Positions 25,519 through 48,518 of a stretch of 64,000 nt of DNA are shown here, one piece after another. The position numbers and the translations under genes are program-made. This DNA is from Flavobacteriaceae bacterium PS02334 (lineage in GTDB: Bacteria > Bacteroidota > Bacteroidia > Flavobacteriales > Flavobacteriaceae): assembly GCA_029959295.1 (NCBI GenBank), contig JASCOH010000003.1, positions 515,005 to 579,004 on the forward strand, written 5' to 3'. Under the pieces are notes generated by a model. The model made no database searches, was not told the DNA's origin, and saw only the letters and a program-made list of their open reading frames with translations. Position 1 is the stretch's first letter, and each line of letters opens with the position of its first letter.

Positions 25519-25562
25519 CAAAACTACAACCTGTTTATAACCCGTACAGTAACATAGGTTAC
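25519..25562 (-). promoter_or_regulatory. Crp/Fnr-type site 1 and promoter of the persulfide operon
   Basis: Palindrome GTAACATAGGTTAC at 25549-25562, centre 25555.5. The -7 element TAGTTTTG occupies 25519-25526 on the minus strand. The centre is 29.5 bp upstream of its first base, a position near -42 that suits a class II activator. Confidence 0.75.
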
Positions 25563-25573
25563 AAGACTGTTTT

Positions 25574-26377
25574 TTATAAGAATAATTCTTTGATAAGGAT
25601 ATAGATTCCCATAACCAGTACAAACCAACCGAATGCGGATTTGAGTTTATTTCCTTCTATTTTTTTTGACAGGAAGATTCCGATAAAAATCCCGACAACG
25701 GATAATCCGGTAAAAGTGGATAACAAAGTCCAGTCTATGGTTTCACTACCTTGTAAATCTCCGGTAAACCCTAAAAGTGATTTCGCAGCAATTATAAATA
25801 AGGAAGTTCCTACGGCTAATTTCATAGGCATTTTTGCTAATAAAACCAATGCCGGAATAATTAAAAATCCACCACCTGCACCGACTAATCCGGTTAAAGT
25901 TCCAACCAAAGCTCCTTCCAACAGAATCATTGGATAGTTGTATTTTATTTCGCCGTCATCTGCATCTTTACAATGCGGACAAGGACGTATCATGGATATC
26001 GAAGCAAATATCATTACGATGGCAAACAACACCATTAAGGCGATAGGTTTGGTAAATTCAAAACTTCCAACAGTGAAAATAACATCAGGAATCAGAGGCA
26101 TCAGATATGCTCTGGTTAAATACACTGCAACAATAGATGGAATACCAAAAATAAATACGGTTTTAAAATCTACTTTTTTATGTAGGGCATTTTGAACGCC
26201 ACCGACCAAAGATGTTGCCCCTACAACGAATAAGGAATAGGCTGTTGCCAGAATAGGATTAACACCCATCACATACACCAAAATAGGAACGGTAAGTATG
26301 GAACCTCCGCTACCTATAAGTCCTAATGAAACACCTACTAAAACGGCCAATAAATAGCCTATAAAATCTGTTGTCAT
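25574..26377 (-). CDS. TSUP-family sulfite/sulfur exporter
   Basis: This 267-residue protein has about eight membrane helices in two repeated halves, each opening with a glycine-rich turn (GLIGSGGSILTVPILV and GLVGAGGGFLIIPALV). This is the TSUP (TauE/SafE) fold, which moves sulfite, sulfonates or related sulfur anions across the membrane. The middle loop has a CPHC pair. It is its own transcription unit, driven from Crp-type site 2, and lies upstream of the persulfide operon; export of sulfite made by the dioxygenases is the natural role. Confidence 0.9.
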   Translation of the reverse strand: MTTDFIGYLLAVLVGVSLGLIGSGGSILTVPILVYVMGVNPILATAYSLFVVGATSLVGGVQNALHKKVDFKTVFIFGIPSIVAVYLTRAYLMPLIPDVIFTVGSFEFTKPIALMVLFAIVMIFASISMIRPCPHCKDADDGEIKYNYPMILLEGALVGTLTGLVGAGGGFLIIPALVLLAKMPMKLAVGTSLFIIAAKSLLGFTGDLQGSETIDWTLLSTFTGLSVVGIFIGIFLSKKIEGNKLKSAFGWFVLVMGIYILIKELFL

Positions 26378-26401
26378 AATTCTCTAATTAAATCGATAAC
26401 A

Positions 26402-26445
26402 CAAAATTAGAGGACTGTAATAACGCAGGCAGTAACAATTGTTAC
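26402..26445 (-). promoter_or_regulatory. Crp/Fnr-type site 2 and promoter of the TSUP gene
   Basis: Perfect palindrome GTAACAATTGTTAC at 26432-26445, centre 26438.5, with TAATTTTG at 26402-26409 on the minus strand. The centre-to-element distance is again 29.5 bp. Confidence 0.78.
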
Positions 26446-26531
26446 AGAGCCCTAAAAATTATAAATTATTCGATTTATGTAAAATCATTTTGTGATGAAA
26501 TGGAATTTAATGTTTATTTATTCTGTACTTT

Positions 26532-26575
26532 GTAACAAGTGTTACAATTGTTTTTGTAATTTAGAAATACTTTTA
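26532..26575 (+). promoter_or_regulatory. Crp/Fnr-type site 3 and promoter of cydAB
   Basis: GTAACAAGTGTTAC at 26532-26545, inside TGTAACAAGTGTTACA, centre 26538.5. On the plus strand, TACTTTTA at 26568-26575 matches the -7 consensus at 7 of 8 fixed and free positions and starts 29.5 bp from the centre. Confidence 0.75.
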
Positions 26576-26643
26576 CAGTAGCATATAACAGACGAATATA
26601 TTCTTATTAAAGATTTGATATTCAGTTAAATTAACCATTTCTT

Positions 26644-27981
26644 ATGGAAGATATGATTCTTTATAATCGGTTGCAATTTGCTTTCACGATTACCTTTCAC
26701 TACTTGTTTCCTCAACTCACTATGGGGCTTTCCTTGATGATTGTTTATTTTAAATGGAAATTTCTCAGAACGAAAAATGAAGACTACAATAATGCATCAA
26801 AATTCTGGATGAAGATTTTTGCATTAAACTTCGCAATGGGCGTTGTAACGGGTATTCCAATGGAATTTCAGTTCGGCACCAATTGGGCGAAGTTCTCTGA
26901 GCTTACCGGAGGTATCATCGGACAAACGTTGGCAATGGAAGGAATGTTCTCCTTCTTTTTAGAATCTTCTTTTCTGGGTATGTTTCTTTTTGGAGAAAAG
27001 CTACTTGGACAGAAACTACACTTTCTTTCGGGACTGATGGTTTTCCTCGGTTCCTGGGCAAGTGGTTTTTTGATTATTGCTACACACTCTTGGATGCAAC
27101 ATCCTGTCGGTTACGAAATTTTTGAAAACGGAAAGTTTGTATTGAACAATTTTAGTGCTCTATTCAATAATCCTTGGCTGTGGCCTTCATATCTACATAA
27201 TCAAATGGGTTCGTTAGTAACGAGTTCTTTTTTTGTGGCAGCCGTTGGAGCTTTCTATTTATTGAGTAATAAGCATAGTCGCTTTGGGAAGATTTTTGTA
27301 AAAAGCGGAGTCGTTTTCGGGGTAATTTCTTCAGTCATATTGGCTTTCCCTACGGGAGACTGGGCGGCTAAAAATGTGGTTAAATACCAGCCAGCAACAT
27401 TTGCAGCTATGGAAGGTATTTTCGAAACCGAAAAAGGAGGTTCTGAAATCGTTTTGGTAGGGCAACCCGATATGGAGAATAAAAAGCTGGATAATAAAAT
27501 CGCTGTGCCCAATGTACTTAGTTTTCTTACTTATCAGCGTTGGGATGCTGAAATTAAAGGTTTAAACGAATTTGATGAATCTATACATCCCACCAATGTT
27601 CCAGGTTTGTATTATGGTTATCATATTATGGTTGGCTTAGGAACTATTTTTATAGGAATTATGGTACTTGCATCGTTTTTGCTTTGGAAAGATAAACTGT
27701 ATAAAACGAAATGGCTGCTGTGGATTCTTATGTTTATGATCCCTTTTCCTTATATAGCCAATACAGCCGGATGGTACACGGCGGAATTAGGTAGGCAGCC
27801 CTGGCTTGTCTATAACCTGATGCGTATGGTTGATGGCGTTTCACCTACGGTATCTTCAGGAAATACATTATTTACTCTCTTGGGGTTTGTTGGACTGTAT
27901 TTGCTTCTTGGATTGCTTTTTCTTTTACTTGTTTTAAAAATCATTCGCAAAGGTCCTGAAGCTAAAATGGCCTTAAAATAA
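26644..27981 (+). CDS. cydA: Cytochrome bd quinol oxidase subunit I
   Basis: This 445-residue protein has the CydA pattern: MILYNRLQFAFTITFHYLFPQLTMG at the heme-binding N-terminus, GVVTGIPMEFQFGTNW, EGMFSFFLESSFLGMFLFGE, and a short Q-loop region. It is on the short side for the family, as in many Bacteroidota. Cytochrome bd is a high-affinity terminal oxidase that resists sulfide and nitric oxide better than heme-copper oxidases. Its place in a sulfide-handling regulon fits that property. No assembly factor (CydCD) or small CydX is seen nearby. Confidence 0.95.
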   Translation: MEDMILYNRLQFAFTITFHYLFPQLTMGLSLMIVYFKWKFLRTKNEDYNNASKFWMKIFALNFAMGVVTGIPMEFQFGTNWAKFSELTGGIIGQTLAMEGMFSFFLESSFLGMFLFGEKLLGQKLHFLSGLMVFLGSWASGFLIIATHSWMQHPVGYEIFENGKFVLNNFSALFNNPWLWPSYLHNQMGSLVTSSFFVAAVGAFYLLSNKHSRFGKIFVKSGVVFGVISSVILAFPTGDWAAKNVVKYQPATFAAMEGIFETEKGGSEIVLVGQPDMENKKLDNKIAVPNVLSFLTYQRWDAEIKGLNEFDESIHPTNVPGLYYGYHIMVGLGTIFIGIMVLASFLLWKDKLYKTKWLLWILMFMIPFPYIANTAGWYTAELGRQPWLVYNLMRMVDGVSPTVSSGNTLFTLLGFVGLYLLLGLLFLLLVLKIIRKGPEAKMALK

Positions 27982-27987
27982 TTGATT

Positions 27988-29064
27988 ATGGAGATATTTT
28001 GGTTTATTGTATTAATGGTTATGTTGGGGATTTACATTATCCTCGATGGGTATGATTTTGGAGCCGGGATTGTACATTTATTTTTGGCTAAAACCGAGGA
28101 AGAAAAAAAAGCCGTAACTAATGCTATCGGGCCTTTTTGGGATGCTAATGAAGTGTGGCTGATTGCTTCAGGAGGTGTTTTATTCTTTGCATTTCCGACG
28201 CTATATGCATCGGCTTTTAGTGGTTTTTATCTGCCTTTAATGCTGGTTTTATGGTTGTTGATTTTCAGAGCTGTAGGACTGGAATTGCGAGGACAAGTAC
28301 ATCACAAAATGTGGGAAGCTATTTGGGACAAAGCATTTGGGATTGCAAGTTTTCTGTTGGCTCTTTTCTTTGGTGCAGCACTCGGAAACGTGGTAAGAGG
28401 TGTAAACCTTGGAATGGTCGAAAATGGTATTTCTACACAAGAAGCTCATTATTTCTTTCTGGCACTTTGGAACCCTACGTTTGATCCGCTTGCAGAGCAT
28501 CAGGGGGTTATTGACTGGTTTACCTTGTTATTGGGACTTGTTGCTGTGGTAACATTAACCATTCACGGGGCTAATTGGATTATTTTGAAAACATCTACAT
28601 CACTCAACGGGCGGCTCAAAAAGGTAATTTTTAAATTGAATTTTGTATTGCTGGCACTGGTTGTTGCTTCTGCTTGTTTATGGCATTATGTAAAGCCCTT
28701 TCCTTTAAATAATCTGCAAACGCATTATTGGCTTTGGATATTCCCGATAATTGGTGCAGTAGGTCTAATCGGGTTGTTCAGAATTAACAAATTTAAAAAG
28801 GACAGCACCGGATTTTTATTTTCTTCTATGTTTATTTTCGGAAGCTTTGCCACCACTATAGCTTCTTTGTTTCCGACTTTATTACCTTCTACAAATCAAA
28901 TTAACCCATCATTGACTGTCTATAATGTGGCCGCTCACGAATACGGACTTTCAGTAGGTTTGGGATGGTTTATAGTTGCAGCTATTTTGGTTGTGATATA
29001 TTTCATCATTCAGTTCAGAGTTTTTAAAGGCAAAATGGATGATGTAGGTTACGGAGAGCATTAA
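27988..29064 (+). CDS. cydB: Cytochrome bd quinol oxidase subunit II
   Basis: About 358 residues from the ATG at 27988, 6 bp after cydA; a TTG at 27982 is possible but unnecessary. It has about nine membrane helices and the family signatures FWFIVLMVMLGIYIILDGYDFG at the start and GPFWDANEVWLI. It completes the bd oxidase. The unit ends in a strong hairpin at 29066-29106. Confidence 0.94.
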   Translation: MEIFWFIVLMVMLGIYIILDGYDFGAGIVHLFLAKTEEEKKAVTNAIGPFWDANEVWLIASGGVLFFAFPTLYASAFSGFYLPLMLVLWLLIFRAVGLELRGQVHHKMWEAIWDKAFGIASFLLALFFGAALGNVVRGVNLGMVENGISTQEAHYFFLALWNPTFDPLAEHQGVIDWFTLLLGLVAVVTLTIHGANWIILKTSTSLNGRLKKVIFKLNFVLLALVVASACLWHYVKPFPLNNLQTHYWLWIFPIIGAVGLIGLFRINKFKKDSTGFLFSSMFIFGSFATTIASLFPTLLPSTNQINPSLTVYNVAAHEYGLSVGLGWFIVAAILVVIYFIIQFRVFKGKMDDVGYGEH

Positions 29065-29065
29065 A

Positions 29066-29106
29066 AAAACTCAAAGACTAAGCATTTGACTTAGTCTTTG
29101 AGTTTT
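29066..29106. terminator. Strong bidirectional terminator between cydB and the thioesterase gene
   Basis: A perfect 17-bp inverted repeat (29066-29082 and 29090-29106) with a 7-nt loop. It begins 2 bp after the cydB stop. Its right arm contains the stop and the last five codons of the convergent thioesterase gene, so the terminator is partly coding. Confidence 0.9.
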
Positions 29107-29555
29107 ATCGCTAAAATTTCTCCTGTCGCACAAACAATTCCTTCAGCGGAAAGTGTCATATCTACCAAGATTTTTCTGCCCTCGATACTTCGGAGTTTTC
29201 CTTTTAGCTCCAGCTTTTTACCCATTGGTGTAGGTGCTTTAAAATCAACTTTAAGCGATGCTGTTACACATCTTATGGAAATAATAGCTGCATTTTCAAG
29301 ATCAATATTTTCTGCCAGACAAGCAAAAGCCGCAGCCGAACCAGTTCCGTGACAATCTAATAAGGAAGCAACTAATCCACCGTAAACACTTCCGGGAATT
29401 GCTGTAAATATTTCATCTGGTAAAAAATGGGCGATAGTTTCATCTCCCATTAAATATGTTTTTAACTGATGACCATCTGGATTATTCTTACCACATCCGT
29501 AGCAATGTGCTAGTTCATCGGGATACAAATCTTGAATTGCTTTTGATTTTTGCAT
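29091..29555 (-). CDS. Hotdog-fold (PaaI-type) thioesterase
   Basis: This 154-residue protein has the hotdog pattern with CYGCGKNNPDGHQLKTY at the N-terminus and VYGGLVASLLDCHGTGSAAAF in the central helix. The cysteine motif CYGCG near the start is typical of a subgroup of unknown substrate. It is the second gene after the exported dioxygenase-rhodanese, 20 bp downstream, and its end lies in the cydB terminator. It probably hydrolyses acyl-CoA or a related thioester. Confidence 0.82.
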   Translation of the reverse strand: MQKSKAIQDLYPDELAHCYGCGKNNPDGHQLKTYLMGDETIAHFLPDEIFTAIPGSVYGGLVASLLDCHGTGSAAAFACLAENIDLENAAIISIRCVTASLKVDFKAPTPMGKKLELKGKLRSIEGRKILVDMTLSAEGIVCATGEILAIKLKD

Positions 29556-29575
29556 TCTACTCCTAAAATTTAAAG

Positions 29576-31042
29576 TTATTTTACAAGTTCGTTATTTTTA
29601 TCTTTCCAATCATTAATTCCACCAGAATAATTCAGAATGTTTTCAAAACCGTTTTTTACAAGAATGGAATAAGCAATTGCCGCTCTTGTTCCGCTTTGGC
29701 AATGGATGATGACAGGTTCTTTTTTATTGATTTTATTAAGATTGTTTTCAAGTGTATTCAGTACTATATTTTCAACACCTTTGATATGGCCACTTTTGTA
29801 TTCGTTTTCGGTACGAACATCAATTTTCTTAATGTTTTTGTTTCCCAAATATGATTTGAAAGTATCTATATCGATGGTTTTTACATTTTGCAAAGCCAAA
29901 TTTTGTTCAGACGGATTAGTTATGTACCCATAGATATTGTCCATCCCGATACGCATCAGTTTACGGGTCAAATCCTCGATTTGATTTTCGTCTGCAACCA
30001 AAATAATCTGATTTTGATAATCAACAACCGAACCGACAAACGTGGAGAATGTTTTCATATTTTCAATCAGAAGACTCCCCGGAATATATCCTTTTCCCGA
30101 AGTTGCTTTTGGGCGGGCATCTATTACGAGTAAACCATTTTTAATCGCATCTTCTGTTTCTTTTTGATTGAGTTTAGCAAGTTTTGGAACTTCAACCAAT
30201 AGCGGACGATCTACTCTGTTCAGATGTTTCATCATCGCAAAATATTTTGGCGGAGCTGGTTGATCGTTCAAAATATAGTTTACAAAATCAGTTTCTTTTC
30301 CCGAAAATTGCAAAGCAGGATTGGTCAATTTTTCTTGTTGCAAAGTAGATTGCGGAATATTGCTCAAACTTTTGCCGCAGAAAGAACCTGCTCCGTGTCC
30401 CGGCCAGATTTCTGTGTTATCGGGTAATTTCAAAAATTTCTCAATAGAATGATAGAGTTGCTTTGCTCCAATTTCCTGCGAACCAATTTGTCCTGCTGCT
30501 TTTTCCAATAAATCGGGACGGCCGACATCGCCTACAAAAATAAAATCTCCGGTAATGGCTTTTATTGGATTTGAAGTTCCGTCTTTTACCAAAAACGTAA
30601 TGCTTTCAGGAGTATGTCCAGGTGTGTGAATGACTTCTATCGTAATACTTCCAACCGAAATTTTATCGCCATTTTTCAGTCCGGTGTGTGGAAAATCGTA
30701 TTGCCAGTCTTTTCCACCTTCGTCAGACAGATATAACGGTGCTTTGGTTACTGTTGCGAGTTCTCGTGAACCACTCAGGAAATCTGCGTGTATATGGGTC
30801 TCGGTAATTTTGGTAATTTTTAAATTATGTTTCTCTGCAATTTGCAAATAGGTATCAATGTCTCTTTTAGGATCGATGACAATCACTTCTTTGGTTTCTG
30901 CATCCCCAATCACGTAACTTGCCTGTGATAGTGTTTCGTCATAAACACGTTCAAAGAAAAGAGTTTGTGCAAATGAGGAATTGGATAGGAAGAATATTGC
31001 TACCAACCAAAGAAAACTGCTTTTTAAAAAGATGGATTTCAT
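29576..31042 (-). CDS. Exported CstB-like persulfide dioxygenase-rhodanese (copy 3)
   Basis: This 488-residue protein has a clear signal peptide (FLWLVAIFFLSNSSFAQ, cut near residue 25). It then has the same three domains as copy 1: dioxygenase with THIHADFLSGSREL (His83, His85, Asp87) and WPGHGAGSFCGK, a rhodanese-like domain without Cys, and a rhodanese with IIHCQSGTRAAIA. By eye it is closer to copy 1 than to copy 2. Export of such an enzyme is unusual, because its thiol substrates are usually cytoplasmic. It is driven by Crp-type site 4. Confidence 0.87.
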   Translation of the reverse strand: MKSIFLKSSFLWLVAIFFLSNSSFAQTLFFERVYDETLSQASYVIGDAETKEVIVIDPKRDIDTYLQIAEKHNLKITKITETHIHADFLSGSRELATVTKAPLYLSDEGGKDWQYDFPHTGLKNGDKISVGSITIEVIHTPGHTPESITFLVKDGTSNPIKAITGDFIFVGDVGRPDLLEKAAGQIGSQEIGAKQLYHSIEKFLKLPDNTEIWPGHGAGSFCGKSLSNIPQSTLQQEKLTNPALQFSGKETDFVNYILNDQPAPPKYFAMMKHLNRVDRPLLVEVPKLAKLNQKETEDAIKNGLLVIDARPKATSGKGYIPGSLLIENMKTFSTFVGSVVDYQNQIILVADENQIEDLTRKLMRIGMDNIYGYITNPSEQNLALQNVKTIDIDTFKSYLGNKNIKKIDVRTENEYKSGHIKGVENIVLNTLENNLNKINKKEPVIIHCQSGTRAAIAYSILVKNGFENILNYSGGINDWKDKNNELVK

Positions 31043-31122
31043 ATATTAATTGCTTTAAAATTTCAATGTTTTATATTTATCTACACTAACTTCGCATAGT
31101 TATATGTGATATTATAAATAGA

Positions 31123-31166
31123 CAAAATTAGCAATTCCCATTTTGGCAGAAAGTAACATAGGTTAC
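31123..31166 (-). promoter_or_regulatory. Crp/Fnr-type site 4 and promoter of the exported dioxygenase gene
   Basis: GTAACATAGGTTAC at 31153-31166, the same 14 bp as site 1, centre 31159.5. TAATTTTG lies at 31123-31130 on the minus strand, 29.5 bp from the centre. Confidence 0.78.
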
Positions 31167-31229: not shown

Positions 31230-31781
31230 CTATTCTTTGTTGGTGTCAAAATAGATATTCGGTCTTCCAAAAATCCATTTTACGAATGAAACAACCAATG
31301 CAATCGGAATTATGAATATAGCGGCTATAATCATTCCGTATTCATACAACAAAGAACTATCTGAATAAGGTTTCCCTTTCATTCTGGCACGCAGTGCACT
31401 CATCGGTAAGCCAATCATATTGCCCATCAGCATCAGTTGAATGGCTACCAATATAATTCTTGCCTCTTCTTTTCCGTATTCTTTTACAATGGCTTCGTAT
31501 GTTTCCTGTTCTGGCAATCCACGTGTTTCGGCATAATGTTGAGCAAATAGAATGGCTTTCGATTCTTCGGGATTGACAAAGCTTTTGTCTCCCGTAAGGA
31601 AACCCGATATTTCATCGTTATTCATTCCCATTTTTAATGCCATCTGCGTATGAGCGTATGAACATACGGCACAAGCGTTGACCTCAGTTACTGCCAGTTG
31701 TAATCTTTCTAAAAATTGCTCATCAATGGTTTTCTGCTTTTTATTTTTGATAAATATTATTGCCGACCTCGGTGCTAACAT
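31230..31781 (-). CDS. AhpD-like carboxymuconolactone decarboxylase-family protein with C-terminal membrane helix
   Basis: This 183-residue protein has the AhpD/CMD core with the redox pair CAVC (NACAVCSYAHTQMALKMG) and a C-terminal hydrophobic helix (MIIAAIFIIPIALVVSFV). The frame continues upstream of the chosen ATG for about 14 codons that read KVSLSELFRSL, similar to longer relatives, but contains no ATG, GTG or TTG. The N-terminus may be shortened. It is the last gene of the TetR-led export operon, with a 95-bp gap to the ABC ATPase. Confidence 0.78.
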   Translation of the reverse strand: MLAPRSAIIFIKNKKQKTIDEQFLERLQLAVTEVNACAVCSYAHTQMALKMGMNNDEISGFLTGDKSFVNPEESKAILFAQHYAETRGLPEQETYEAIVKEYGKEEARIILVAIQLMLMGNMIGLPMSALRARMKGKPYSDSSLLYEYGMIIAAIFIIPIALVVSFVKWIFGRPNIYFDTNKE

Positions 31782-31876
31782 TAGCGAACGAAACAGTTCT
31801 GATAAAGAAACTTTTCTTTTATACTAAGTTTGATTTTCAATGTTTTGAGGTATAGATATGTTATTATTCATTGTAC

Positions 31877-32569
31877 TTAATTTGTATGTCCGCCAATGAT
31901 GCTTCCGTCTTTCATTTCTATGGTACGGTCACTTTTCTGAGCGAATTCATCATCGTGGGTTACAGCAATAATGGTTTGTCCGAAACTGCGGGTCAGGTCT
32001 TTGAAAATATCAAAAACAATGTCTGTGTTCTTACTGTCCAAATTACCTGTTGGCTCATCACCCATAATAATCAACGGATCATTAATTAAGGCTCTGGCAA
32101 TGGCAACACGTTGTTGCTGCCCACCCGAAAGTTTATTCGCAGGTTTGAGGGCCTGATCTTCCATACCCAGCATTTTTAACTTTTCATAAGCCCGTTCTTC
32201 TATTTCCTTTGGGGAAAACTTACCCAATTTCAGTGCGGGAATCATCACATTTTTCAGGCAGGTAAATTCTGCCAGCAGGTAATGAAACTGGAATACAAAA
32301 CCTATTTTTTCGTTTCGGATTGCTGCCAGTTCATCAACCGATTTTCCTGTAATTAATTCATTATCTATCACTAAATTTCCATTATAATCTCTGTCCATAG
32401 TGGAAAGGATATAGAGCAAAGTAGATTTACCACTCCCTGACTTCCCGATAAGTGTTAGAAATTCACCTCTCTCTACTTCAAAACCAATATTTTTCAACAC
32501 CTGAAATTCTACCGGGTCATAAAAATACTTGTCGATATTTTCTGTTTTTAAAACGATATTTTTATCCAT
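31877..32569 (-). CDS. MacB/LolD-type ABC transporter ATPase
   Basis: This 230-residue ATPase has Walker A GKSGSGKSTLLY, signature LSGGQQQRVAIARAL, Walker B IIMGDEPTGNLDS and the switch His in VTHDDEFA. The pattern QFHYLLAEFTCLKNVMIP is typical of the MacB/LolD group. It powers the permease encoded 3 bp upstream. With adaptor and TolC genes in the same unit it forms a tripartite exporter. Confidence 0.93.
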   Translation of the reverse strand: MDKNIVLKTENIDKYFYDPVEFQVLKNIGFEVERGEFLTLIGKSGSGKSTLLYILSTMDRDYNGNLVIDNELITGKSVDELAAIRNEKIGFVFQFHYLLAEFTCLKNVMIPALKLGKFSPKEIEERAYEKLKMLGMEDQALKPANKLSGGQQQRVAIARALINDPLIIMGDEPTGNLDSKNTDIVFDIFKDLTRSFGQTIIAVTHDDEFAQKSDRTIEMKDGSIIGGHTN

Positions 32570-32572
32570 GAT

Positions 32573-33796: not shown

Positions 33797-33800
33797 CAGT

Positions 33801-34892: not shown

Positions 34893-34896
34893 ACGT

Positions 34897-36222: not shown

Positions 36223-36240
36223 TCAAAAAAATATTATAAA

Positions 36241-36846: not shown

Positions 36847-36890
36847 TAAAAGTAGTTTAGCTCATTAAGCTACACTGTAACAAAGGTTAC
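36847..36890 (-). promoter_or_regulatory. Crp/Fnr-type site 5 and promoter of the TetR-exporter operon
   Basis: GTAACAAAGGTTAC at 36877-36890, centre 36883.5. TACTTTTA at 36847-36854 on the minus strand is a 7/8 match to the -7 element at the standard 29.5 bp. Confidence 0.72.
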
Positions 36891-37838: not shown

Positions 37839-37882
37839 TAAAATTAATCGGGAACTAAAAGATACACAGTAACCATTGTTAC
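37839..37882 (-). promoter_or_regulatory. Crp/Fnr-type site 6 and promoter of the DinB-like unit
   Basis: GTAACCATTGTTAC at 37869-37882, centre 37875.5, with TAATTTTA (7/8 match) at 37839-37846 on the minus strand. Spacing 29.5 bp as at the other sites. Confidence 0.72.
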
Positions 37883-37893
37883 AGAAATAAAAC

Positions 37894-38586: not shown

Positions 38587-38597
38587 TTTATATTAAT

Positions 38598-39902: not shown

Positions 39903-39905
39903 ACG

Positions 39906-41966
39906 TTAAAATTTATATTGCACGAAAACCGTAAAATTTCTACCGGCTTCATTAATCGGTACACTGGCAAAACCTTCCTGATTTCGGAATGCAAAATTTA
40001 AGTGGTTGTGGTATGTCTTATCAAAAATATTTAGCCCGGCTATTCCGATACTTAGTTTTTCAACAGGTTTATAACCCAACCGTACATCCATAGTCTGATA
40101 ACCCCCTGTTCTGATTTCTCCGAATGAATATGCCAACTCATTTTGGCTTGCTACAATGTTATACTGAATATTTCCCCAGAATTTTTCTTTTTCTATTCCT
40201 GTAGAAATACGAGCGGTGAAGGGTGGAATTAATGGTAAAGATTCATCAAAATCCTTATTTCTGGTATAGATATAAGATAAATCGGTTTTTAAGAAATAGT
40301 ATTTTCCGAAATCCAATTTAGCAGAAGCATCAATGCCTGTTTTGTAAGCATCTTTTATATTTGTAAATACTTTAGCATCAGATGCTATATCAGGCTCAAT
40401 TACTGCCGAAATATAATTTCTAAAAAAACCATAATATACAGATCCTTCAAAATGAATGGTATTGAAAAAACCATTTAGATTTTCATAACCATTTAATCCA
40501 ATTTCAAATTGATTATTTACCTCAGCTTTCAGATCTGGATTTCCGGTATAGGTATAACTATCCTGCCCGACATTGAACTGGTTGATGTATCGTTCGATCA
40601 TATTGGCAGAACGCACACCACGACCGTAAGCAAATTCTAAAAACAACCGGTCTGAAAATGCTTTTTTCACCGAAATGGTTCCACTTAGATTATGCTCTGT
40701 TCTTTTATTCAAATCATACAATGCGGAAAAATCTGCTTCCGGTTTACGAATGTCAGACATGACCATATCGTAACGTAATCCAGCGGATAAAATATAGGAA
40801 GTCAGAAAGTTCCATTTAGCTTCCGTATAAACTCCTATATCGTCAATATAAGAATCCTGCCATATAGAATTTATTCTTGTCACAGGGTTGGGTAATGGAT
40901 TACCGTTCTGCATCTTTATTAGTCTTGTGCGGTCTCCATCTCTATCAATATGCAGATAATCCATTCCGCTAAAAAAATGAAGTTTATCTGAAGTTTTCCA
41001 TTCCAATTCTGCTTTTCCACCGATAGTTGTAGAATTTACATCGGCTGCTGCTTCTGTCGCTTTTGCCGTAGTACGGTTATAATTCGTCATCAAGTGATCT
41101 ACATAACTGTAATAGGTTTTTACTTGCAGGCTTTTTAGATTTTTTCCAATATTTTCCCATTTGTAATCCAATGAAGCAATGCTGCTGTTGTCATATTCGG
41201 TATCCATAGGAAGACCTGCGTGGAGCACATCTCGTCCGAAAGCCTGTCTCCAGGACACTTGTATACGCTGGTGCGGGTTGATGTTATATCCCAGTTTGAC
41301 TCCATAATCCGTACTTCTGAATGAGGACGGAATTTCAGTGCCGTCACCATCCTTGTAATTACCATAATCTCTGTAACCAAAATTTCCGGCTACGTCAAAT
41401 TTTTGCGTTACATATTGTAGCTGAGCCATTCCTACATAGGCATTTCCATTGGTTTCGTAGCCTGAAGCCACCGAACCGTGAAAGCCGTGTTCTCCTTTTG
41501 ATGGATTGCGTGTGACCAGATTGACGATGCCCCCAAAATTTGCACCGTACCGCACACTATAGGGACCTTTAATGATTTCTATTTTCTCAATTTCTTCAGG
41601 CGAAATGTGAGAGGTAATCGGATCCATACGATTAGGACAAGCGTGCATCACTTTCAGTCCACCATCGTATTGAATATTCAATTGCTCATATTGTGCACCC
41701 CGAAATGTAGGATCCATTGCGTAATTCCCTCGTTTTATTAAAGAAAATCCATTTATGTCACTAAATAAGCCAGCTACATTTTTAGGTTGTACTATTTTTT
41801 CATTATAGTTGTTGGAAACTTTACTGAATGTGGGGTTTTCCAATCTATAACCCGTAATTATTATTTCATTGAGGATCGTTGTTTTTATAGTATCCTCTTT
41901 TTGCTCACTTTGAGCCATAGCTATATAAGGCACAATACAAAGCAAAGTCAATAGTATTGATTTCAT
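39906..41966 (-). CDS. TonB-dependent receptor of the OprC/NosA copper type
   Basis: About 686 residues from the Met at 41966, which starts a signal peptide (ILLTLLCIVPYIAMAQ). It has a plug domain and a 22-strand barrel ending in aromatic YKF. The plug carries KVMHACPNRMDPITSH: a CxxxM motif at Cys110 and Met114, which in OprC binds copper. The surrounding ACPNRMDP is typical of that receptor family. It would import copper in some form. No carboxypeptidase-like N-terminal domain of the SusC type is present. Confidence 0.85.
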   Translation of the reverse strand: MKSILLTLLCIVPYIAMAQSEQKEDTIKTTILNEIIITGYRLENPTFSKVSNNYNEKIVQPKNVAGLFSDINGFSLIKRGNYAMDPTFRGAQYEQLNIQYDGGLKVMHACPNRMDPITSHISPEEIEKIEIIKGPYSVRYGANFGGIVNLVTRNPSKGEHGFHGSVASGYETNGNAYVGMAQLQYVTQKFDVAGNFGYRDYGNYKDGDGTEIPSSFRSTDYGVKLGYNINPHQRIQVSWRQAFGRDVLHAGLPMDTEYDNSSIASLDYKWENIGKNLKSLQVKTYYSYVDHLMTNYNRTTAKATEAAADVNSTTIGGKAELEWKTSDKLHFFSGMDYLHIDRDGDRTRLIKMQNGNPLPNPVTRINSIWQDSYIDDIGVYTEAKWNFLTSYILSAGLRYDMVMSDIRKPEADFSALYDLNKRTEHNLSGTISVKKAFSDRLFLEFAYGRGVRSANMIERYINQFNVGQDSYTYTGNPDLKAEVNNQFEIGLNGYENLNGFFNTIHFEGSVYYGFFRNYISAVIEPDIASDAKVFTNIKDAYKTGIDASAKLDFGKYYFLKTDLSYIYTRNKDFDESLPLIPPFTARISTGIEKEKFWGNIQYNIVASQNELAYSFGEIRTGGYQTMDVRLGYKPVEKLSIGIAGLNIFDKTYHNHLNFAFRNQEGFASVPINEAGRNFTVFVQYKF

Positions 41967-42024
41967 TTTTTTAAAATTTGATGAATGATAAATACATTCC
42001 TTAATTAAATCAAGGAATTTCAAT

Positions 42025-42405
42025 TTAGACCATCAAATTTTCGGGTGGACGTTTGTATTTATCCAAATATGGAAAGGAATAGAAGGATTTTTTGGCAATA
42101 TTTTTATTCTTCTGTAATCTTTCGATCTTTATAAACTCTAAAGTGAATTTTTCAGTAGGAATAAAATCAGAAAAGCTGATAATAGAAATTTGTTCGGGTA
42201 TTTTTTCCTGTGTTTCTGAAGCCTCTTTTGTGGCTTTACTTAGACTGCATTTTCCATTACAATGCAGTTCCGGCTTCTCTTGATTTTCACAAAACAATTC
42301 TATATACCTTTCGGTGTCCAATAAATAAAAAGCATAATGAAACTGTGCATAGAACGTTCTAAACACTAAAGTAAAGAGGAATATGTACAAGGCTGCTTTC
42401 TTCAA
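42025..42405 (-). CDS. Small exported protein with CNGKC motif, upstream of the copper-type receptor
   Basis: This 126-residue unrecognised protein has an N-terminal signal or anchor helix (ALYIFLFTLVFRTFYA), Cys39 and a CNGKC motif (Cys49, Cys53). A similar-looking small protein often precedes metal-type TonB receptors in Bacteroidota, as I recall. A metal-binding or sensing role is possible. It is first in the unit driven from Crp-type site 7. Confidence 0.6.
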   Translation of the reverse strand: MKKAALYIFLFTLVFRTFYAQFHYAFYLLDTERYIELFCENQEKPELHCNGKCSLSKATKEASETQEKIPEQISIISFSDFIPTEKFTLEFIKIERLQKNKNIAKKSFYSFPYLDKYKRPPENLMV

Positions 42406-42433: not shown

Positions 42434-42477
42434 CAAAGTTACTTTGGCGAGATGGTATTTATTGTAACCAATGTTAC
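42434..42477 (-). promoter_or_regulatory. Crp/Fnr-type site 7 and promoter of the copper-receptor unit
   Basis: GTAACCAATGTTAC at 42464-42477, centre 42470.5, with TAACTTTG, a perfect TAnnTTTG element, at 42434-42441 on the minus strand. Spacing 29.5 bp. Confidence 0.75.
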
Positions 42478-42549: not shown

Positions 42550-43797
42550 TTATTGAACTATCGTTTCTTTCATTCTTATCCAAACGATAATACCGGATAT
42601 AAGCGTAATAAACCCTGCAATGTGTACTGCCCATTCCAGTCCGAAGAAACTACCAACTATTCCAGCCATTAATGCACCGATGGCATAGCCCATATCCCGC
42701 CAAAAACGATAAACACCTAAGGATGATGCCCGCCATGTTGGATTTGCAGTATCGCTCACGGCTGCCAGTAAAGCGGGATATACCATAGCTGTACCAATAC
42801 CCAAAAATATTGAGCCAATTAAGCCCGATGTCAAAGGTTCAAACCATTCAAAACCGATAATAATATGCCCTAAAACCTGTACCAACATTCCCCAAACAAT
42901 CAAAGGTTTTCTGCCTATTTTGTCGGCTAAAGGTCCCGTAACAATTTGTCCTAATCCCCAAACCACCGGATATATGGCTTTAATCCAACCAATCCCCTCC
43001 AAACCGACTCCCATAGACATAAAAAGCAATGGAAACACACCCCAAGACATTCCGTCATTGAGATTGTTAATCATTCCTGCTTGCGAAACAGAAAACAGGT
43101 TTTTGTTTTTGAATGAAGTTTCTTTAAACACCCACCATAAGTTGGGCTTATGTGCAGTTTCGTCTGTTGATACTTGTATAGCTTCTAATTGGGCGAATTT
43201 TCGGGTGTCCCGAACCACAAAAATAGAAAGCAATAACCCAACAATGGTATAAGCTATTCCGATATAAAAAGGTTGCGGTCGTAGTCCGTAATACGATGCC
43301 AAATACCCCGTAAGCAAAGCGGTCAATCCGACGGCTCCATAACCTGCAGCTTCATTTAAGCCCATGGCTAAACCTCTGTTTTTTTTGCCTACCAAGTCAA
43401 TTTTCATATTGACGGTCATAGACCAGGCTAATCCCTGACTAATTCCAAGCAGGACATTCGCAAATAAAATCCAATTCCAAGACGGTGCAAAAGCTAAAAT
43501 AAATGGAACAGGTAAACCAAATAACCAACCCCAAATCAAAACTTTCTTTCGGGTATATTTGTCTGCCAACACACCCGAAATCAGGTTGGTAAATGCTTTG
43601 ACAACACCAAAAGCAATGATAAATGAAAAAACAACAACATCAGATTTAATATGGAATTCTTCCATTCCAACCAATGGAACAACGGTTCTTTCCAAGCCGA
43701 CCATGCCCCCCACCATCATATTGACAAGGACAAGTAAGGTGAATTGCTGCCAGTTTTCTTTTAATCCTAAGCGTATTTTTTCTTTAGTTTCAATCAT
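42550..43797 (-). CDS. MFS transporter
   Basis: This 415-residue protein has twelve membrane helices and the MFS loop motif GVLADKYTRKKVLIWG between helices 2 and 3, repeated in the second half as GPLADKIGRKPLIVWG. The substrate is unknown. It is the last gene of the YeeE-porin-Crp unit and overlaps the DUF202-type gene by 4 bp. In this setting a drug- or metabolite-exporting role is as likely as sulfur-compound transport. Confidence 0.9.
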   Translation of the reverse strand: MIETKEKIRLGLKENWQQFTLLVLVNMMVGGMVGLERTVVPLVGMEEFHIKSDVVVFSFIIAFGVVKAFTNLISGVLADKYTRKKVLIWGWLFGLPVPFILAFAPSWNWILFANVLLGISQGLAWSMTVNMKIDLVGKKNRGLAMGLNEAAGYGAVGLTALLTGYLASYYGLRPQPFYIGIAYTIVGLLLSIFVVRDTRKFAQLEAIQVSTDETAHKPNLWWVFKETSFKNKNLFSVSQAGMINNLNDGMSWGVFPLLFMSMGVGLEGIGWIKAIYPVVWGLGQIVTGPLADKIGRKPLIVWGMLVQVLGHIIIGFEWFEPLTSGLIGSIFLGIGTAMVYPALLAAVSDTANPTWRASSLGVYRFWRDMGYAIGALMAGIVGSFFGLEWAVHIAGFITLISGIIVWIRMKETIVQ

Positions 43798-44123
43798 TCT
43801 ACCTTTTCATATTTCAGCTTATAATCTCCTATATGAATTTCACTTTGTTTGATTTTTTTGTGGTTGCGGAAATAGTTGATAATGCCCACAACGAGTAAAA
43901 GCCCGGATATAACGAACAAGATATATTCAAAAATAACCGCCTCGTTACCATCAACGAGCTTGTTGACACTAAGTCCAGCCACCAAAAAATACATGGAGCT
44001 TCTTAAAAATGAAAGAAATGTCGATTGATTGGCAAGAAATGTACGTTGGATAGCTAATTCTTCTCTAAGTATCAGGTCTTTTTTGAAAGGTGAATTTATT
44101 TGTTCGCCTTTGGTTTCTTCCAT
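43794..44123 (-). CDS. DUF202 (YidH-type) membrane protein
   Basis: This 109-residue protein has two membrane helices and the family pattern ELAIQRTFLANQSTFLSFLRSSM before the first helix. Function unknown. It lies between the Crp-type regulator (4-bp gap) and the MFS gene (4-bp overlap). Confidence 0.82.
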   Translation of the reverse strand: MEETKGEQINSPFKKDLILREELAIQRTFLANQSTFLSFLRSSMYFLVAGLSVNKLVDGNEAVIFEYILFVISGLLLVVGIINYFRNHKKIKQSEIHIGDYKLKYEKVE

Positions 44124-44127
44124 AGCG

Positions 44128-44757: not shown

Positions 44758-44770
44758 AGTTATTTTGATT

Positions 44771-45184
44771 TTAATGAGGCAACTTATTTTTTATCAATCC
44801 ATATAACCAAGTGCCTAATACAGCTCCTAAAATTACAACTAAAATCGGAAAATAGCCAGCCCCTGTCATTACAAACATAGGACCCGGACATGCTCCTGCC
44901 AACGCCCAGCCCAATCCAAAAAGAATACCGCCTATTAAATAGCGTGGAATACTTTTATCCTTGTCTGCAATGACAATGCGATTGCCATTCACGTCTTTTA
45001 CTTTGTTTCTTTTGATGTACTGTACTATGATTATTCCTACGGCTAAGGCACTACCCATCAATCCATACATGTGAATGGATTGAAACTGGAACATTTCATA
45101 TATTCTGAACCAGGATGCTGCTTCGGATTTGTACATAACAATTCCGAAAAATGTTCCGATTAGTAAGTAAACTATATTTTTCAT
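44771..45184 (-). CDS. YeeE/YedE-type half transporter (small subunit)
   Basis: This 137-residue protein has about four membrane helices and the motif GWALAGACPGPMFVMTGAGY, with the conserved Cys of the YeeE/YedE (thiosulfate transport) fold. It is half the length of a full YeeE; the other half is at 46551-47108. This split arrangement resembles PmpA/PmpB. It probably takes up thiosulfate or another sulfur species. It lies between porin and Crp-type genes. Confidence 0.88.
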   Translation of the reverse strand: MKNIVYLLIGTFFGIVMYKSEAASWFRIYEMFQFQSIHMYGLMGSALAVGIIIVQYIKRNKVKDVNGNRIVIADKDKSIPRYLIGGILFGLGWALAGACPGPMFVMTGAGYFPILVVILGAVLGTWLYGLIKNKLPH

Positions 45185-45189
45185 TGCTT

Positions 45190-46545
45190 TTAAAAATTAA
45201 AATTTGTTATTAGATTGATTTGGTTGTAATCGCTTCTTTGTGCAACCAATTTTGTGTTATGCTCGCTCTTATTTTGCTTCCAGACATATAGTAACTCGAC
45301 ATGAAGCCCTTTTAAGAAATTGGAAAATTCATAATGAAGACGTGTATTGATCTGGTAATAATCATCGATATTGTATTTGTTTAATTCATAGTCATCTGTT
45401 ACTGCTCCATGGGTAGTGGTGGCATCGATATTCAAAAATAAATGTTTCCAACTGTACTGATACCCGATAGCAAAGACATCAACTCCACCCAATCCTTCGA
45501 TACGGCTTCTGGGCATGGAAGTATAAAACTGATCCCGCCCCAATTCTTTCGGGAATAAGTACCTGCCGGACTCAAAAGATTTGGTATAAGCTGCTTTAAA
45601 TTGTGATGAACCATTTTTGTATTTCAGCATACTGCTGACTACCTGTCCGTTTTCATCCGGCTGTATATACCTATTTGCGTAATCAAGCTCCTTTTGATAA
45701 GAATGCGGTATCTGATAAGAATAAATAATGCCAAGCTCCCAATTTTTTTTTGCATACTCCAATTGCAACCAGGAGGTGTTAATGAATTTATCCAAATGAA
45801 AATTCCAAAAATTGACTTTCAAATTTTTAAATTCCTTTCCCAAATGCACAATCGCTAATCCTTGTGAATGCGTTGTTTCTTTGTAATCGGCTTTTTCTCC
45901 GTTTGGTAAATAGCCGTTATCGGTAAGTCCTATAACCTCATCCATTGAAAACCATTCTGTCATTGATCTCGGGGAAACTCTATGAATCCAGGCTATATCA
46001 GCATGAAATTTTTCATCTTTTAGATGCAGCCAAGCTCCCTGAAAGGCAAAAGGCTTCATTCTTCCATCGCTTTTATTCAATAAGGGCGTATATTCTACCG
46101 GAATTTTCCCATAGGTTACGTACGAATTTTTCCAATGATATTTGATATACAGTTCCTCCAATCTGTCCAAATCTTTAAAATTGTCCTTATGATTTACATC
46201 GAATAGTTCCTGTTCCCACCGTGATGATTTATTGGTCTGATCGTAAGGTTTATTCAAATCTGATGAAAACACCTTGTAGGTAAATATCCCTGAAACACCT
46301 AACTGAAAACCCTTGTACGATTTGGTTTCATAACTTAATACACCTCCAATGGCATTGGCATGATAATCATTCCCATGATTGTTTTCTGTTGTCAGAAAAT
46401 AGTTTCGGATATGACCGCTGATTTCGCCTTCTTTCAGATATGAAACCAATGATTTATTTTCAACGGTATCTTTTGTGTGGTTTTCCTGTGCTTTTATTGG
46501 TTGAGAAAGTATAACTACAACCAGCATTACCACCAGCCTTTTCAT
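45190..46545 (-). CDS. OprD-like outer membrane porin
   Basis: This 451-residue protein has a signal peptide (MLVVVILSQPIKAQE) and a strand-rich barrel ending in an aromatic residue (NLITNFNF). The segments GHIRNYFLTTENN and AIGGVLSYETKSYKGFQLG resemble OprD-type porins. It is encoded between the two halves of a YeeE-type transporter, so it likely lets the same small sulfur anion or solute through the outer membrane. Confidence 0.78.
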   Translation of the reverse strand: MKRLVVMLVVVILSQPIKAQENHTKDTVENKSLVSYLKEGEISGHIRNYFLTTENNHGNDYHANAIGGVLSYETKSYKGFQLGVSGIFTYKVFSSDLNKPYDQTNKSSRWEQELFDVNHKDNFKDLDRLEELYIKYHWKNSYVTYGKIPVEYTPLLNKSDGRMKPFAFQGAWLHLKDEKFHADIAWIHRVSPRSMTEWFSMDEVIGLTDNGYLPNGEKADYKETTHSQGLAIVHLGKEFKNLKVNFWNFHLDKFINTSWLQLEYAKKNWELGIIYSYQIPHSYQKELDYANRYIQPDENGQVVSSMLKYKNGSSQFKAAYTKSFESGRYLFPKELGRDQFYTSMPRSRIEGLGGVDVFAIGYQYSWKHLFLNIDATTTHGAVTDDYELNKYNIDDYYQINTRLHYEFSNFLKGLHVELLYVWKQNKSEHNTKLVAQRSDYNQINLITNFNF

Positions 46546-46550
46546 CGGTA

Positions 46551-47108
46551 TTAAAAAATTAAAGGAAAAATAAGATGTACCATAATTAATCCTCCAATGA
46601 AAAATCCAATAGTAGCAATCAATGACGGTAACTGTAAATTACTGATACCTGATATGGCATGACCTGAAGTACAACCACCTGCGTAACGTGCTCCAAAACC
46701 AACCAATATACCTCCTATCAATAGTATAGCCAATGTCTTAGGATCTGAAAAAGCTTCCGGCCCAAAAAGTTCAGTTGGTACATATGCTTTCCCGGCACTT
46801 TCAAAACCTATTTCCTTTAAATGTTCAACCGTTTTTGGATTTAAGTCAGGTATTTGATTATCCGACAGATAATTTGAAGCTACAAAACCACCGATAACAG
46901 CTCCGCTCATTACCAATAAATTCCAGCGTTGTGCTTTCCAGTCAAAACAGAAAAAATCACAGGTTTTATCTGCACCGCACATGGTGCACAGTGTTCTTAA
47001 ATTAGACGACATTCCAAAATTCTTTCCTATATAAAGGAGGATAAACATCGTCATTGCAATCAATGGTCCGCTCACATACCACGGCCACGGTTCTAAAATC
47101 CATTCCAT
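46551..47108 (-). CDS. YeeE/YedE-type half transporter (large subunit)
   Basis: This 185-residue protein has four to five membrane helices and the family motif GGILVGFGARYAGGCTSGHAISGI, with the conserved Cys. An extra Cys-rich segment (CTMCGADKTCDFFCFDW) lies in a loop at about 39-56. It pairs with the small subunit at 44771-45184. It is the first gene of the unit that also encodes porin, Crp-type regulator, DUF202 protein and MFS transporter. Confidence 0.88.
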   Translation of the reverse strand: MEWILEPWPWYVSGPLIAMTMFILLYIGKNFGMSSNLRTLCTMCGADKTCDFFCFDWKAQRWNLLVMSGAVIGGFVASNYLSDNQIPDLNPKTVEHLKEIGFESAGKAYVPTELFGPEAFSDPKTLAILLIGGILVGFGARYAGGCTSGHAISGISNLQLPSLIATIGFFIGGLIMVHLIFPLIF

Positions 47109-47138
47109 AAATTAAATTGTCATTCTTTTTTATTGTCG

Positions 47139-47182
47139 CAAATTTCGGCTTATAAAAAGAGATAGTTTGTTACATAGGTTAC
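47139..47182 (-). promoter_or_regulatory. Crp/Fnr-type site 8 and promoter of the YeeE-porin-regulator unit
   Basis: GTTACATAGGTTAC at 47169-47182 (one arm varies), centre 47175.5. GAAATTTG at 47139-47146 on the minus strand is a 7/8 match to the -7 element, 29.5 bp from the centre. The unit includes the Crp/Fnr regulator gene. Confidence 0.7.
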
Positions 47183-47188
47183 ACAAGA

Positions 47189-48451
47189 CTAAACATCTTC
47201 GCCTTTCATCATTTTATGCCAATACAAATAAGGAAGCATATATTTTTTTAACAGCCACAAACGCCAGTGTTCTTTGGAACTGTCGCCAATCAGCATCATT
47301 TTGAGTTTTGGGTCGGGCGTGAATTCATTTTTGTAATTAAACTCTGCCAATACCATTTTTCCGTAACCTGTTACTAAGGGACAAGATGAATACCCTTGGT
47401 ACGATTTGTTGTCGGCAGTTTTTCCTTTTATTAGTTTAAGGATATTATCAACCACTACAGGAGCCTGTTTGCGTACGGCTGCTCCGGTTTTTGCGGTTGG
47501 TAATGCGGCTATGTCTCCAATCCCGAAAATATTCGGATATTTTTTGTGTTGAAGACTATTGATATCCACATCTAACCAACCTGCTTCATTCACCAATACA
47601 GATTCTTTTACAAACTTTGGAGCTGTTTGAGGTGGAGCTAAGTGCAACAAATCAAAAGGCATTTCAATCAATGAATCACCTTGTTGCTTTTCTCCCAAAA
47701 CATTACCTTCGTTTACAATACAGTTGTTGTCATCGGGAGCTACACTTTTGAAATAGACTATTTTTTTGTTTGCATCTATTTTAACGGGAGCATAAAAAGG
47801 TTTAAAATGTACATTGTATCGATGGATGACTTTCATCAATGTATCCGCAATCCGCTTTACGCCAAAGATGACCGTACCGGGAGTTGCAAACACTACATTT
47901 GACTTTTTGTCTAATCCATTCCTGCGAAAATAGTCTGCCGCCAGGTACATGATTTTCTGAGGAGCTCCGCCACATTTTATAGGGGTTGTAGGTTGGGTAA
48001 AAACCGCATTTCCACCCTTAAAGCTCTTTAGGCATTCCCATGTATATTTTGGATCTATATAGTTACTGCATACAATGCCTTTTTTTACGGCTTCTTCCAG
48101 TCCCTCTATTAGGGAAAGGTTATTTACTAATCCGGGAGCAACAATGAGATAACTGTAACTAATTACCTGCCCTTGTTGTGTTTTTATTTTGGCTTGCTCG
48201 GGAAAGAATTCGATCACAGAATCCCGGATCCATTCTACACCTCGCGGAATTAAATCTCTAATAGGTTTTGCCGTTTTGTCGAAATCATAAGTTCCTGCTC
48301 CGACCAATGTCCAGGCTGGTTGATAATAGTGCATCTCTGCCGGATCAATGATGACAATGTCAAGTGACTTATCCTTTTTTAAAAGCTGAGCTGCTGTCAT
48401 AATACCGGCTGTACCAGCTCCAATTATGACTATTTGATAATGTGCTTTCAT
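47189..48451 (-). CDS. sqr: Sulfide:quinone oxidoreductase
   Basis: About 420 residues from the Met at 48451. It has the FAD-binding start YQIVIIGAGTAGIMTAAQLL, Cys in GIVCSNYIDP, PIKCGGAPQKIMYLAAD, and YSSCPLVTGYGKMVLAEF near the C-terminus, all typical of SQR. It oxidises sulfide to persulfide or polysulfide and reduces quinone, feeding electrons to the bd oxidase and persulfide to the dioxygenases. A longer start at 48511 is unlikely because it would lie inside the Crp-type operator, upstream of the predicted transcription start. Confidence 0.9.
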   Translation of the reverse strand: MKAHYQIVIIGAGTAGIMTAAQLLKKDKSLDIVIIDPAEMHYYQPAWTLVGAGTYDFDKTAKPIRDLIPRGVEWIRDSVIEFFPEQAKIKTQQGQVISYSYLIVAPGLVNNLSLIEGLEEAVKKGIVCSNYIDPKYTWECLKSFKGGNAVFTQPTTPIKCGGAPQKIMYLAADYFRRNGLDKKSNVVFATPGTVIFGVKRIADTLMKVIHRYNVHFKPFYAPVKIDANKKIVYFKSVAPDDNNCIVNEGNVLGEKQQGDSLIEMPFDLLHLAPPQTAPKFVKESVLVNEAGWLDVDINSLQHKKYPNIFGIGDIAALPTAKTGAAVRKQAPVVVDNILKLIKGKTADNKSYQGYSSCPLVTGYGKMVLAEFNYKNEFTPDPKLKMMLIGDSSKEHWRLWLLKKYMLPYLYWHKMMKGEDV

Positions 48452-48474
48452 TTCCTCATTATTTAAATTATCCG

Positions 48475-48518
48475 TAAAAGTATATTTTGAATAAAAAAAA
48501 GTCTGTAACAAATGTTAC
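48475..48518 (-). promoter_or_regulatory. Crp/Fnr-type site 9 and promoter of sqr
   Basis: GTAACAAATGTTAC at 48505-48518, centre 48511.5, with TACTTTTA (7/8 match) at 48475-48482 on the minus strand. Spacing 29.5 bp. The site fixes the sqr start at 48451. Confidence 0.75.

Follow-up and report, generated by a model that had tools for sequence, protein, structure and literature searches.

The DNA considered here (the window, 64,000 nucleotides of contig JASCOH010000003.1 from Flavobacteriaceae bacterium PS02334, positions 515,005 to 579,004) carries a cargo of sulfide/persulfide, sulfur-transport, cytochrome bd and efflux genes, among which a gene for a Crp/Fnr-family regulator (P0001) and nine palindromic sites are placed (Table 1). 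The units behind these sites comprise thirty genes, provided that thioredoxin and the first CMD protein belong to their operons. The palindrome was examined as GTAAC-N4-GTTAC and as a composite extended by N22 and TAnnTTT, the latter representing the Bacteroidota -7 element (consensus TAnnTTTG). Eight perfect sites and a ninth with a single mismatch (47169) lie at the coordinates given in an earlier note on this DNA, and the gap between palindrome and -7 element, read on the strand of the gene, is 22 bp at all nine. The note had credited the -7 elements with at least seven of eight matching positions; they match five or all six of the fixed letters, the count of seven having included the two N, and its assignment of every site to a downstream unit holds by strand and position. 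The divergent TSUP and cydAB units have a separate operator each. With one mismatch allowed, the window yields 12 matches versus 1.29 on average in 100 dinucleotide shuffles (sd 1.09, largest 6, none reaching 12); the remaining three (4151, 33462 and 35361) fall inside open reading frames (ORFs) and on neither strand have more than three of the six fixed -7 letters 22 bp away. The spacing is fixed and places the operator centre near -41.5 relative to the predicted transcript start, as in class II promoters, which supports the view of these palindromes as operators of putative class II-type promoters, centred about 41-42 bp before the start.

Table 1. Positions of the predicted operators, cargo genes and transfer genes in the window
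Feature	Position	Strand	Remark
RteC, regulator typical of CTnDOT-like elements	181..1011	-	left side of cargo
Thioredoxin	20414..20833	-	possible last gene of persulfide operon; preceded by 340-bp gap
Rhodanese	21174..21545	-	
Rhodanese	21589..21903	-	
Peroxiredoxin (AhpC-TSA, 1-Cys Prx C-terminal domain)	21975..22622	-	
Metallo-beta-lactamase (MBL) + rhodanese, second	22653..24035	-	
MBL + rhodanese	24063..25481	-	persulfide dioxygenase type by domain make-up
Putative operator, persulfide operon (MBL-rhodanese x2, peroxiredoxin, rhodaneses)	25549..25562	-	-7 TAGTTTTG 25519-25526
TSUP / TauE-SafE sulfur-compound transporter	25574..26377	-	
Putative operator, TSUP (TauE/SafE)	26432..26445	-	-7 TAATTTTG 26402-26409
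Putative operator, cydAB	26532..26545	+	-7 TACTTTTA 26568-26575
Cytochrome bd oxidase, cydA + cydB	26644..29064	+	cydA 26644-27981; cydB 27982-29064
4HBT thioesterase + third MBL-rhodanese	29091..31042	-	29091-29555; 29576-31042
Putative operator, MBL-rhodanese / 4HBT unit	31153..31166	-	-7 TAATTTTG 31123-31130
CMD, ABC ATPase, MacB/FtsX permease, HlyD adaptor, OEP, TetR	31230..36822	-	
Putative operator, TetR-OEP-HlyD-MacB/FtsX-ABC unit	36877..36890	-	-7 TACTTTTA 36847-36854
CMD + DinB	36906..37816	-	36906-37271; 37271-37816
Putative operator, DinB-CMD	37869..37882	-	-7 TAATTTTA 37839-37846
Methyltransferase, amino-acid permease, TonB receptor, 126-aa protein	37894..42405	-	126-aa protein without family match
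Putative operator, 126-aa protein/TonB receptor/amino-acid permease/methyltransferase unit	42464..42477	-	-7 TAACTTTG 42434-42441
MFS transporter + DUF202	42550..44123	-	42550-43797; 43794-44123
Crp/Fnr-family regulator P0001, 209 aa	44128..44757	-	HTH_Crp_2 33.6 bits (cut-off 27); cNMP_binding 29.0 (cut-off 27.5)
Two Sulf_transp (YeeE/YedE) halves flanking a 451-aa protein	44771..47108	-	halves 44771-45184, 46551-47108; 451-aa protein 45190-46545
Putative operator, YeeE-channel-like-YeeE-regulator-DUF202-MFS unit	47169..47182	-	one mismatch; -7 GAAATTTG 47139-47146
Sulfide:quinone oxidoreductase (SQR)-like flavoprotein (sqr)	47189..48451	-	type III SQR selenoprotein-subtype NCBIfam model 233.2 bits (cut-off 525)
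Putative operator, sqr	48505..48518	-	-7 TACTTTTA 48475-48482
TraG/MobC-type coupling protein (YWFCY + T4SS-DNA_transf)	48981..50975	-	right side, adjoins sqr
Relaxase + MobC_2	57464..59193	-	57464-58750; 58759-59193

Across the host genome (4,585,233 bases) ten perfect palindromes are found, eight of them inside the 23-kb module (binomial P about 2e-17). The reversed control pattern occurs 11 times, so that clustering and the promoter gap, rather than the number of sites, make the palindrome stand out. The composite occurs eight times, exclusively in the module, and its control not once; with one mismatch allowed the palindrome has 115 matches versus 305 for the reversed control, which means that degenerate matches carry no signal and that the cluster of perfect sites does. 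The genome-wide motif search proposed in the earlier note thus came out in favour of confinement. Neither of the two outlying perfect sites (C7:3119 and C68:106778) forms a composite. The former (locus L166) lies amid several GTAAC/GTTAC half-sites between divergent ORFs at 2373-2867 (-) and 3427-3900 (+), with no -7 element at 22 bp. A six-frame search with HTH_Crp_2 returned six matches in the genome, three of them above the cut-off including P0001, which gave the single match in the window and is, as had been claimed, its only Crp/Fnr protein.

Conservation of the pair was followed in 199 genomes of the family, a regulator relative being defined as a match to P0001 at E<=1e-20. Such relatives are present in 167 genomes and the composite in 139 (control pattern in 8), distributed as 137 of the 167 genomes with a regulator relative versus 2 of the 32 without (Fisher P about 1e-16), 12 of the latter having been assigned by absence from the match list. 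In addition, 78 loci (1.30 Mb) were fetched around orthologues, two window-identical loci being left out and the genomes being partly shared with the family set. They hold 110 palindromes, against at most 8 (median 1) for each of the other 59 half-site permutations. At least one palindrome is present in 59 of the loci; in 30 loci one lies no more than about 300 bp past the regulator gene and in 12 no more than 500 bp ahead of it; among the loci L024-L051, of about 3.6 kb each and with regulators 59-64% identical, 20 of 28 have at least one perfect palindrome. Of 218 oriented sites (109 palindromes), 85 are followed by TAnnTTT at offset 22 and no more than four at any other single offset between 0 and 49; counted by palindrome, 86 of the 109 have the element at 21-23 in one orientation or both. 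The profile of 117 composites has T before the palindrome in 76%, G at the first central position and C at the last in under 1% each, and G at the second base past the palindrome in 49%; the remaining spacer is unconserved, and a -33 element is therefore visible at most as a trace. Regulators 84-85% identical are encoded in Sphingobacterium and Myroides, and one 79% identical in Porphyromonas. Four single palindromes (L106 18221, L117 17608, L120 16922 and L126 11647) have TAnnTTT at 22 bp both ways, and one operator could there serve two divergent promoters. A contig labelled Candidatus Rokubacteria (L122), probably a mis-binned Bacteroidota contig, encodes a 61% identical regulator and has a composite before TSUP.

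What the composites precede was assessed in a census of 121 of them, 115 with an ORF of at least 60 aa within 300 bp. The first ORF belongs to the MBL/rhodanese group in 33 cases, to TSUP in 19, to OEP efflux in 13 and to SQR-like proteins in 9, at least two of which (L063, L076) are only 26% identical to the SQR of the window. Smaller groups are DUF983 and a fatty-acid-hydroxylase-type membrane protein (5 each), the regulator, SulP permease, a YgaP-like membrane protein and a 120-aa protein (4 each, the last in 3 loci), Mo oxidoreductase (3), peroxiredoxin and CydA (2 each) and eight singletons; Pfam names of groups absent from the window rest on one member each. The census includes two relatives of the module (L054, L165) and leans toward regulator-near genes, most loci having been fetched around the regulator, a bias from which L132-L161, obtained by composite search, are free. 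Sulfur genes dominate downstream of composites; efflux genes recur there regularly, in support of counting the TetR-OEP-HlyD-MacB unit among the members of the regulon. The distance from -7 element to start codon has a median of 22 nt. The 120-aa protein looks secreted and follows composites in L147, L155 and L159; no Pfam family matches the L147 copy, and in L159 two composites precede one gene.

The regulator's own operon, headed by a YeeE half, has the imperfect operator, GTAACCTATGTAAC on the transcribed strand followed by GAAATTTG, with identical letters in the window, L165 and L054. Eight of 11 further YeeE loci have a site before YeeE, either perfect (2) or with one mismatch (6), and in all eight the -7 element does not begin with TA, the first or the second base being different. 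It is plausible that the regulator's own operon is governed by a weaker operator.

The cargo is bordered by genes of conjugative transfer: RteC on its left, and on its right the coupling protein, beyond which relaxase, MobC and ParA-type genes follow; a topoisomerase and an ORF6N protein are located farther left, and the window stops at the contig end. RteC, coupling protein, relaxase and mobilisation proteins are the gene set of a CTnDOT-like integrative and conjugative element, and location of the cargo in such an element is supported, as judged from gene content. What differs from CTnDOT-type elements is the cargo, here apparently a complete one-regulator sulfur regulon. Strain PS02336 (L053) is 100% identical to the window across all 11,494 bp of its locus and PS02338 (L052) across 20,627 bp; in the rpoB region PS02336 is 84.9% identical to the host genome. 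All eight window composites are present in PS02336 with identical letters, seven of them on one contig with identical spacing. Another genome (G030) carries a version 85-91% identical in long stretches, some genes being in pieces, and the Moheibacter lacus genome has seven composites. Since regulator and site are also found together in relatives, the response appears to be transferred in its entirety, as a single package.

P0001 has a cNMP-binding domain and a Crp-type helix-turn-helix, both over curated cut-offs, which places it in the Crp/Fnr superfamily, and its structure model adopts the Crp fold (predicted local distance difference test, pLDDT, 86.8; predicted template modelling score, pTM, 0.62). 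Two familiar types were considered and rejected. The cAMP receptor CRP does not fit, the CRP equivalog model giving 48.6 of 266 bits and the glutamate of the GEL cassette being replaced by M79, a residue invariant in alignment A2. Nor does the FNR [4Fe-4S] type, P0001 being without an N-terminal cysteine cluster and having C77, C83 and C84 as its sole cysteines. These three are invariant in 30 of 30 regulators collected by whole-protein similarity (A1) and in 43 of 43 of A2, P0001 counted in both and A2 being partly biased, since one of the two patterns used to scan for its members was the cysteine motif. All 56 regulators checked carry them, 48 having exactly three cysteines and seven S for T inside the motif. 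In the alignment with E. coli CRP they correspond to I70, F76 and E77, within the cassette binding the cAMP phosphate. In the recognition helix V183 aligns with the glutamate of SRETVGR (Glu181). The operator half-site here is TGTAA, that of CRP is TGTGA, and in the literature of the 1980s exchange of Glu181 for Val is said to shift CRP toward A:T at the base pair which Glu181 reads. Table 1 of PMC12531629 lists Glu181 of CRP among the residues that contact bases.

From these data a mechanism may be proposed in which a dimer of the regulator would bind TGTAAC-N4-GTTACA-type palindromes about 41-42 bp before the start, beside or over the -33 region, and would activate TAnnTTTG promoters in class II manner. 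Its nine targets would be the sulfide/persulfide, sulfur-transport, cytochrome bd and efflux units and its own operon, so that the conjugative element would carry, as its cargo, a regulon complete in itself. The signal would most likely be reactive sulfur (persulfide or polysulfide), read by C77, C83 and C84 in place of the cAMP phosphate cassette: as SQR makes persulfides and the MBL-rhodanese enzymes consume them, regulator activity would track the persulfide level. Taken as a whole, a mobile and self-contained regulon of an encoded class II activator responding to reactive sulfur appears likely. Binding and activation by the encoded protein are very probable, and reactive-sulfur sensing through the three cysteines is on balance the favoured assignment of the signal. 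The interpretation put forward in the earlier note is supported: a single regulon by the confinement of sites and by the conserved site, gap and downstream gene type in other genera; the encoded protein as predicted binder by its co-occurrence with the composite and by the sites beside orthologues; self-regulation by the imperfect site kept before the YeeE-regulator operon in the two relatives and by the sites in the further YeeE loci; and mobility by the conjugation genes and the identity to a genome well diverged at rpoB.

A number of observations weigh against this interpretation. In the structure model the lowest confidence falls on the cysteine loop (mean pLDDT 62 over residues 81-90), and C77 is retained in 18 of 19 mostly distant homologues and is thus not specific. 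The G167 regulator has V183 and palindromes in its locus, with Y and A at 83-84; that of G185 has V183 and a composite before its own gene, with C77 and C83 lost. The cysteines appear accordingly dispensable for the operator link, and a strict need for all three is rejected. Likewise, three metagenome-assembled genomes (L081, L083, L085) have E183, of which L081 and L083 still carry the composite, and a strict V183-to-GTAAC code is rejected as well; a second regulator relative was searched for in the L081 genome and none was seen. Three of the ten genomes whose listed homologue has E183 (G010, G177, G195) also contain the composite, in a contrast that is suggestive only, its 18 genomes having been hand-picked for weak matches or few composites. 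G195 has 28 perfect palindromes, one composite and a best regulator match of 41% identity, and its palindromes may belong to something else. At the level of genomes, those without a regulator relative are mostly small, which may explain part of the contrast; of the nine that reach 2.6 Mb, a single one contains the composite; 30 of the 167 genomes with a match lack the composite, the best match in ten being only 29-45% identical. The palindrome without promoter is present in 186 of the 199 genomes, often no commoner than the control, and is not diagnostic. Finally, the locus sets overlap in part (G007/L131, G124/L115), and related loci are not mutually independent.

The identity of the signal is the point at which another explanation has most to offer. 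The same regulon under the same regulator might respond to oxygen, nitric oxide or general redox state in the way of FNR, DNR or CooA, sulfide genes being included since sulfide oxidation needs respiration. A haem-ligand cysteine is located at roughly this place in CooA, cydAB is a target in the window and in L126, and in other genomes a HemN-type gene and a di-haem peroxidase gene each follow one composite. The big target groups are, however, sulfur genes and efflux, FNR-type N-terminal cysteines are absent from P0001, and the predominance of regulators with exactly three cysteines also speaks against it; we regard such a signal as rather unlikely. The sign of regulation may be questioned in a similar way: as a repressor, the protein would block polymerase beside or over the -33 region until released by reactive sulfur. 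The site is placed where that region could be hidden, and the frequent G at the second base past the palindrome could be a -33 remnant. Repressor sites tolerate more positions, and the fixed 22-bp gap of the 85 oriented sites together with the unconserved spacer fits activation better. Precedents go both ways, since in the sections available of the review PMC9774590 CstR and BigR are named as repressors and FisR as an activator; all in all repression seems improbable. That another host protein binds the palindromes, the regulator's place in the cargo being incidental, draws on the further Crp-type genes of the genome and is very improbable: composite and regulator co-occur across genera, perfect sites outside the module number only two, four of the other Crp-type genes differ in the recognition helix and the fifth match does not look Crp-like. 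A dispersed repeat or chance is contradicted by the permutation, shuffle and offset controls and by the variation of central and flanking bases, and its probability is negligible.

Compared with class II promoters of E. coli CRP, the system inferred here is alike in fold, domains, dyad operator and centre near -41.5 (start predicted), and differs in the methionine replacing the cassette glutamate, the GTAAC half-site, the Bacteroidota promoter and the three cysteines. CstR, SqrR/BigR and FisR likewise act on sulfide/persulfide detoxification genes and have more than one conserved cysteine, but, as far as the accessible part of PMC9774590 describes them, they belong to other protein families; no Crp/Fnr-type sensor was found in that part of this review of reactive-sulfur sensors. 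An uncharacterised Crp/Fnr protein of Eubacterium rectale (3dv8) is the best sequence-profile match and first by Foldseek; it has cysteines at the C77 and C83 positions, isoleucine at C84 and HREVI in the recognition helix, and is not among the 50 VIA-align matches listed. Acinetobacter baumannii A1S_1182 is a Crp-family protein with a persulfide-bearing cysteine in sulfide-exposed cells; unlike P0001 it is 50% identical to E. coli Crp, its cysteine lies opposite the ligand pocket, and the effect of persulfidation on the protein is given as not known in the portion of PMC7315123 at hand. Among the titles and abstract beginnings listed by searches of a literature without preprints and most subscription papers, there was neither a Crp-type reactive-sulfur regulon of Bacteroidota nor any regulator of sulfide and persulfide genes in this phylum.

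Some gene labels of the earlier note require revision, its other unit assignments being sound. SQR falls below the model cut-off, as does the TonB receptor called copper receptor (NCBIfam model 274.7 bits, cut-off 472.45). The 451-aa protein called porin matches nothing in Pfam, in NCBIfam or, by sequence at E<=1, in the PDB and, by eye from its translation, looks like an outer-membrane channel. The true start of sqr is likely the in-frame ATG at 48451, because the listed TTG at 48511 falls within the palindrome and the ATG lies just past the -7 element, near the median distance seen elsewhere. Beyond the regulon, positions 14920-19413 encode monothiol bacilliredoxin BrxC, a methyltransferase, DsbA, thioredoxin, OsmC and AraC and HxlR regulators, a second thiol-related cargo region that is palindrome-free. 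Between TraG and relaxase (54108-57452, +) MerC, GTP cyclohydrolase I, a CobW-type GTPase and an NAD(P)-type oxidoreductase form perhaps a metal-related cassette, and to the left of the window (L162, 4269-14093) a sodium/bile-acid-type symporter, Lgt, a VIT family protein, a heavy-metal P-type ATPase, a methyltransferase and an esterase are encoded.

The conserved composite allows targets to be read straight from genomes, and by this means the MacB/TolC-type exporter, DUF983 and YgaP-like proteins are drawn into the sulfur response. The module clearly exemplifies how a mobile element can carry about thirty genes together with their regulator and operators, in a recipient genome where perfect operators elsewhere number just two and further composites are absent. 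It is best described as a mobile Crp-family regulon whose effector is probably new. A wider proposal, which might go either way, is that these regulators form a Crp-fold class of reactive-sulfur sensors with a C-x5-CC site replacing the cAMP pocket, widespread among Flavobacteriaceae, with members in other Bacteroidota, which would govern sulfide oxidation, persulfide removal, a TolC/MacB-type exporter and cytochrome bd by one rigid promoter design, and which conjugative elements would have packed into a one-regulator regulon working on arrival in a new host.

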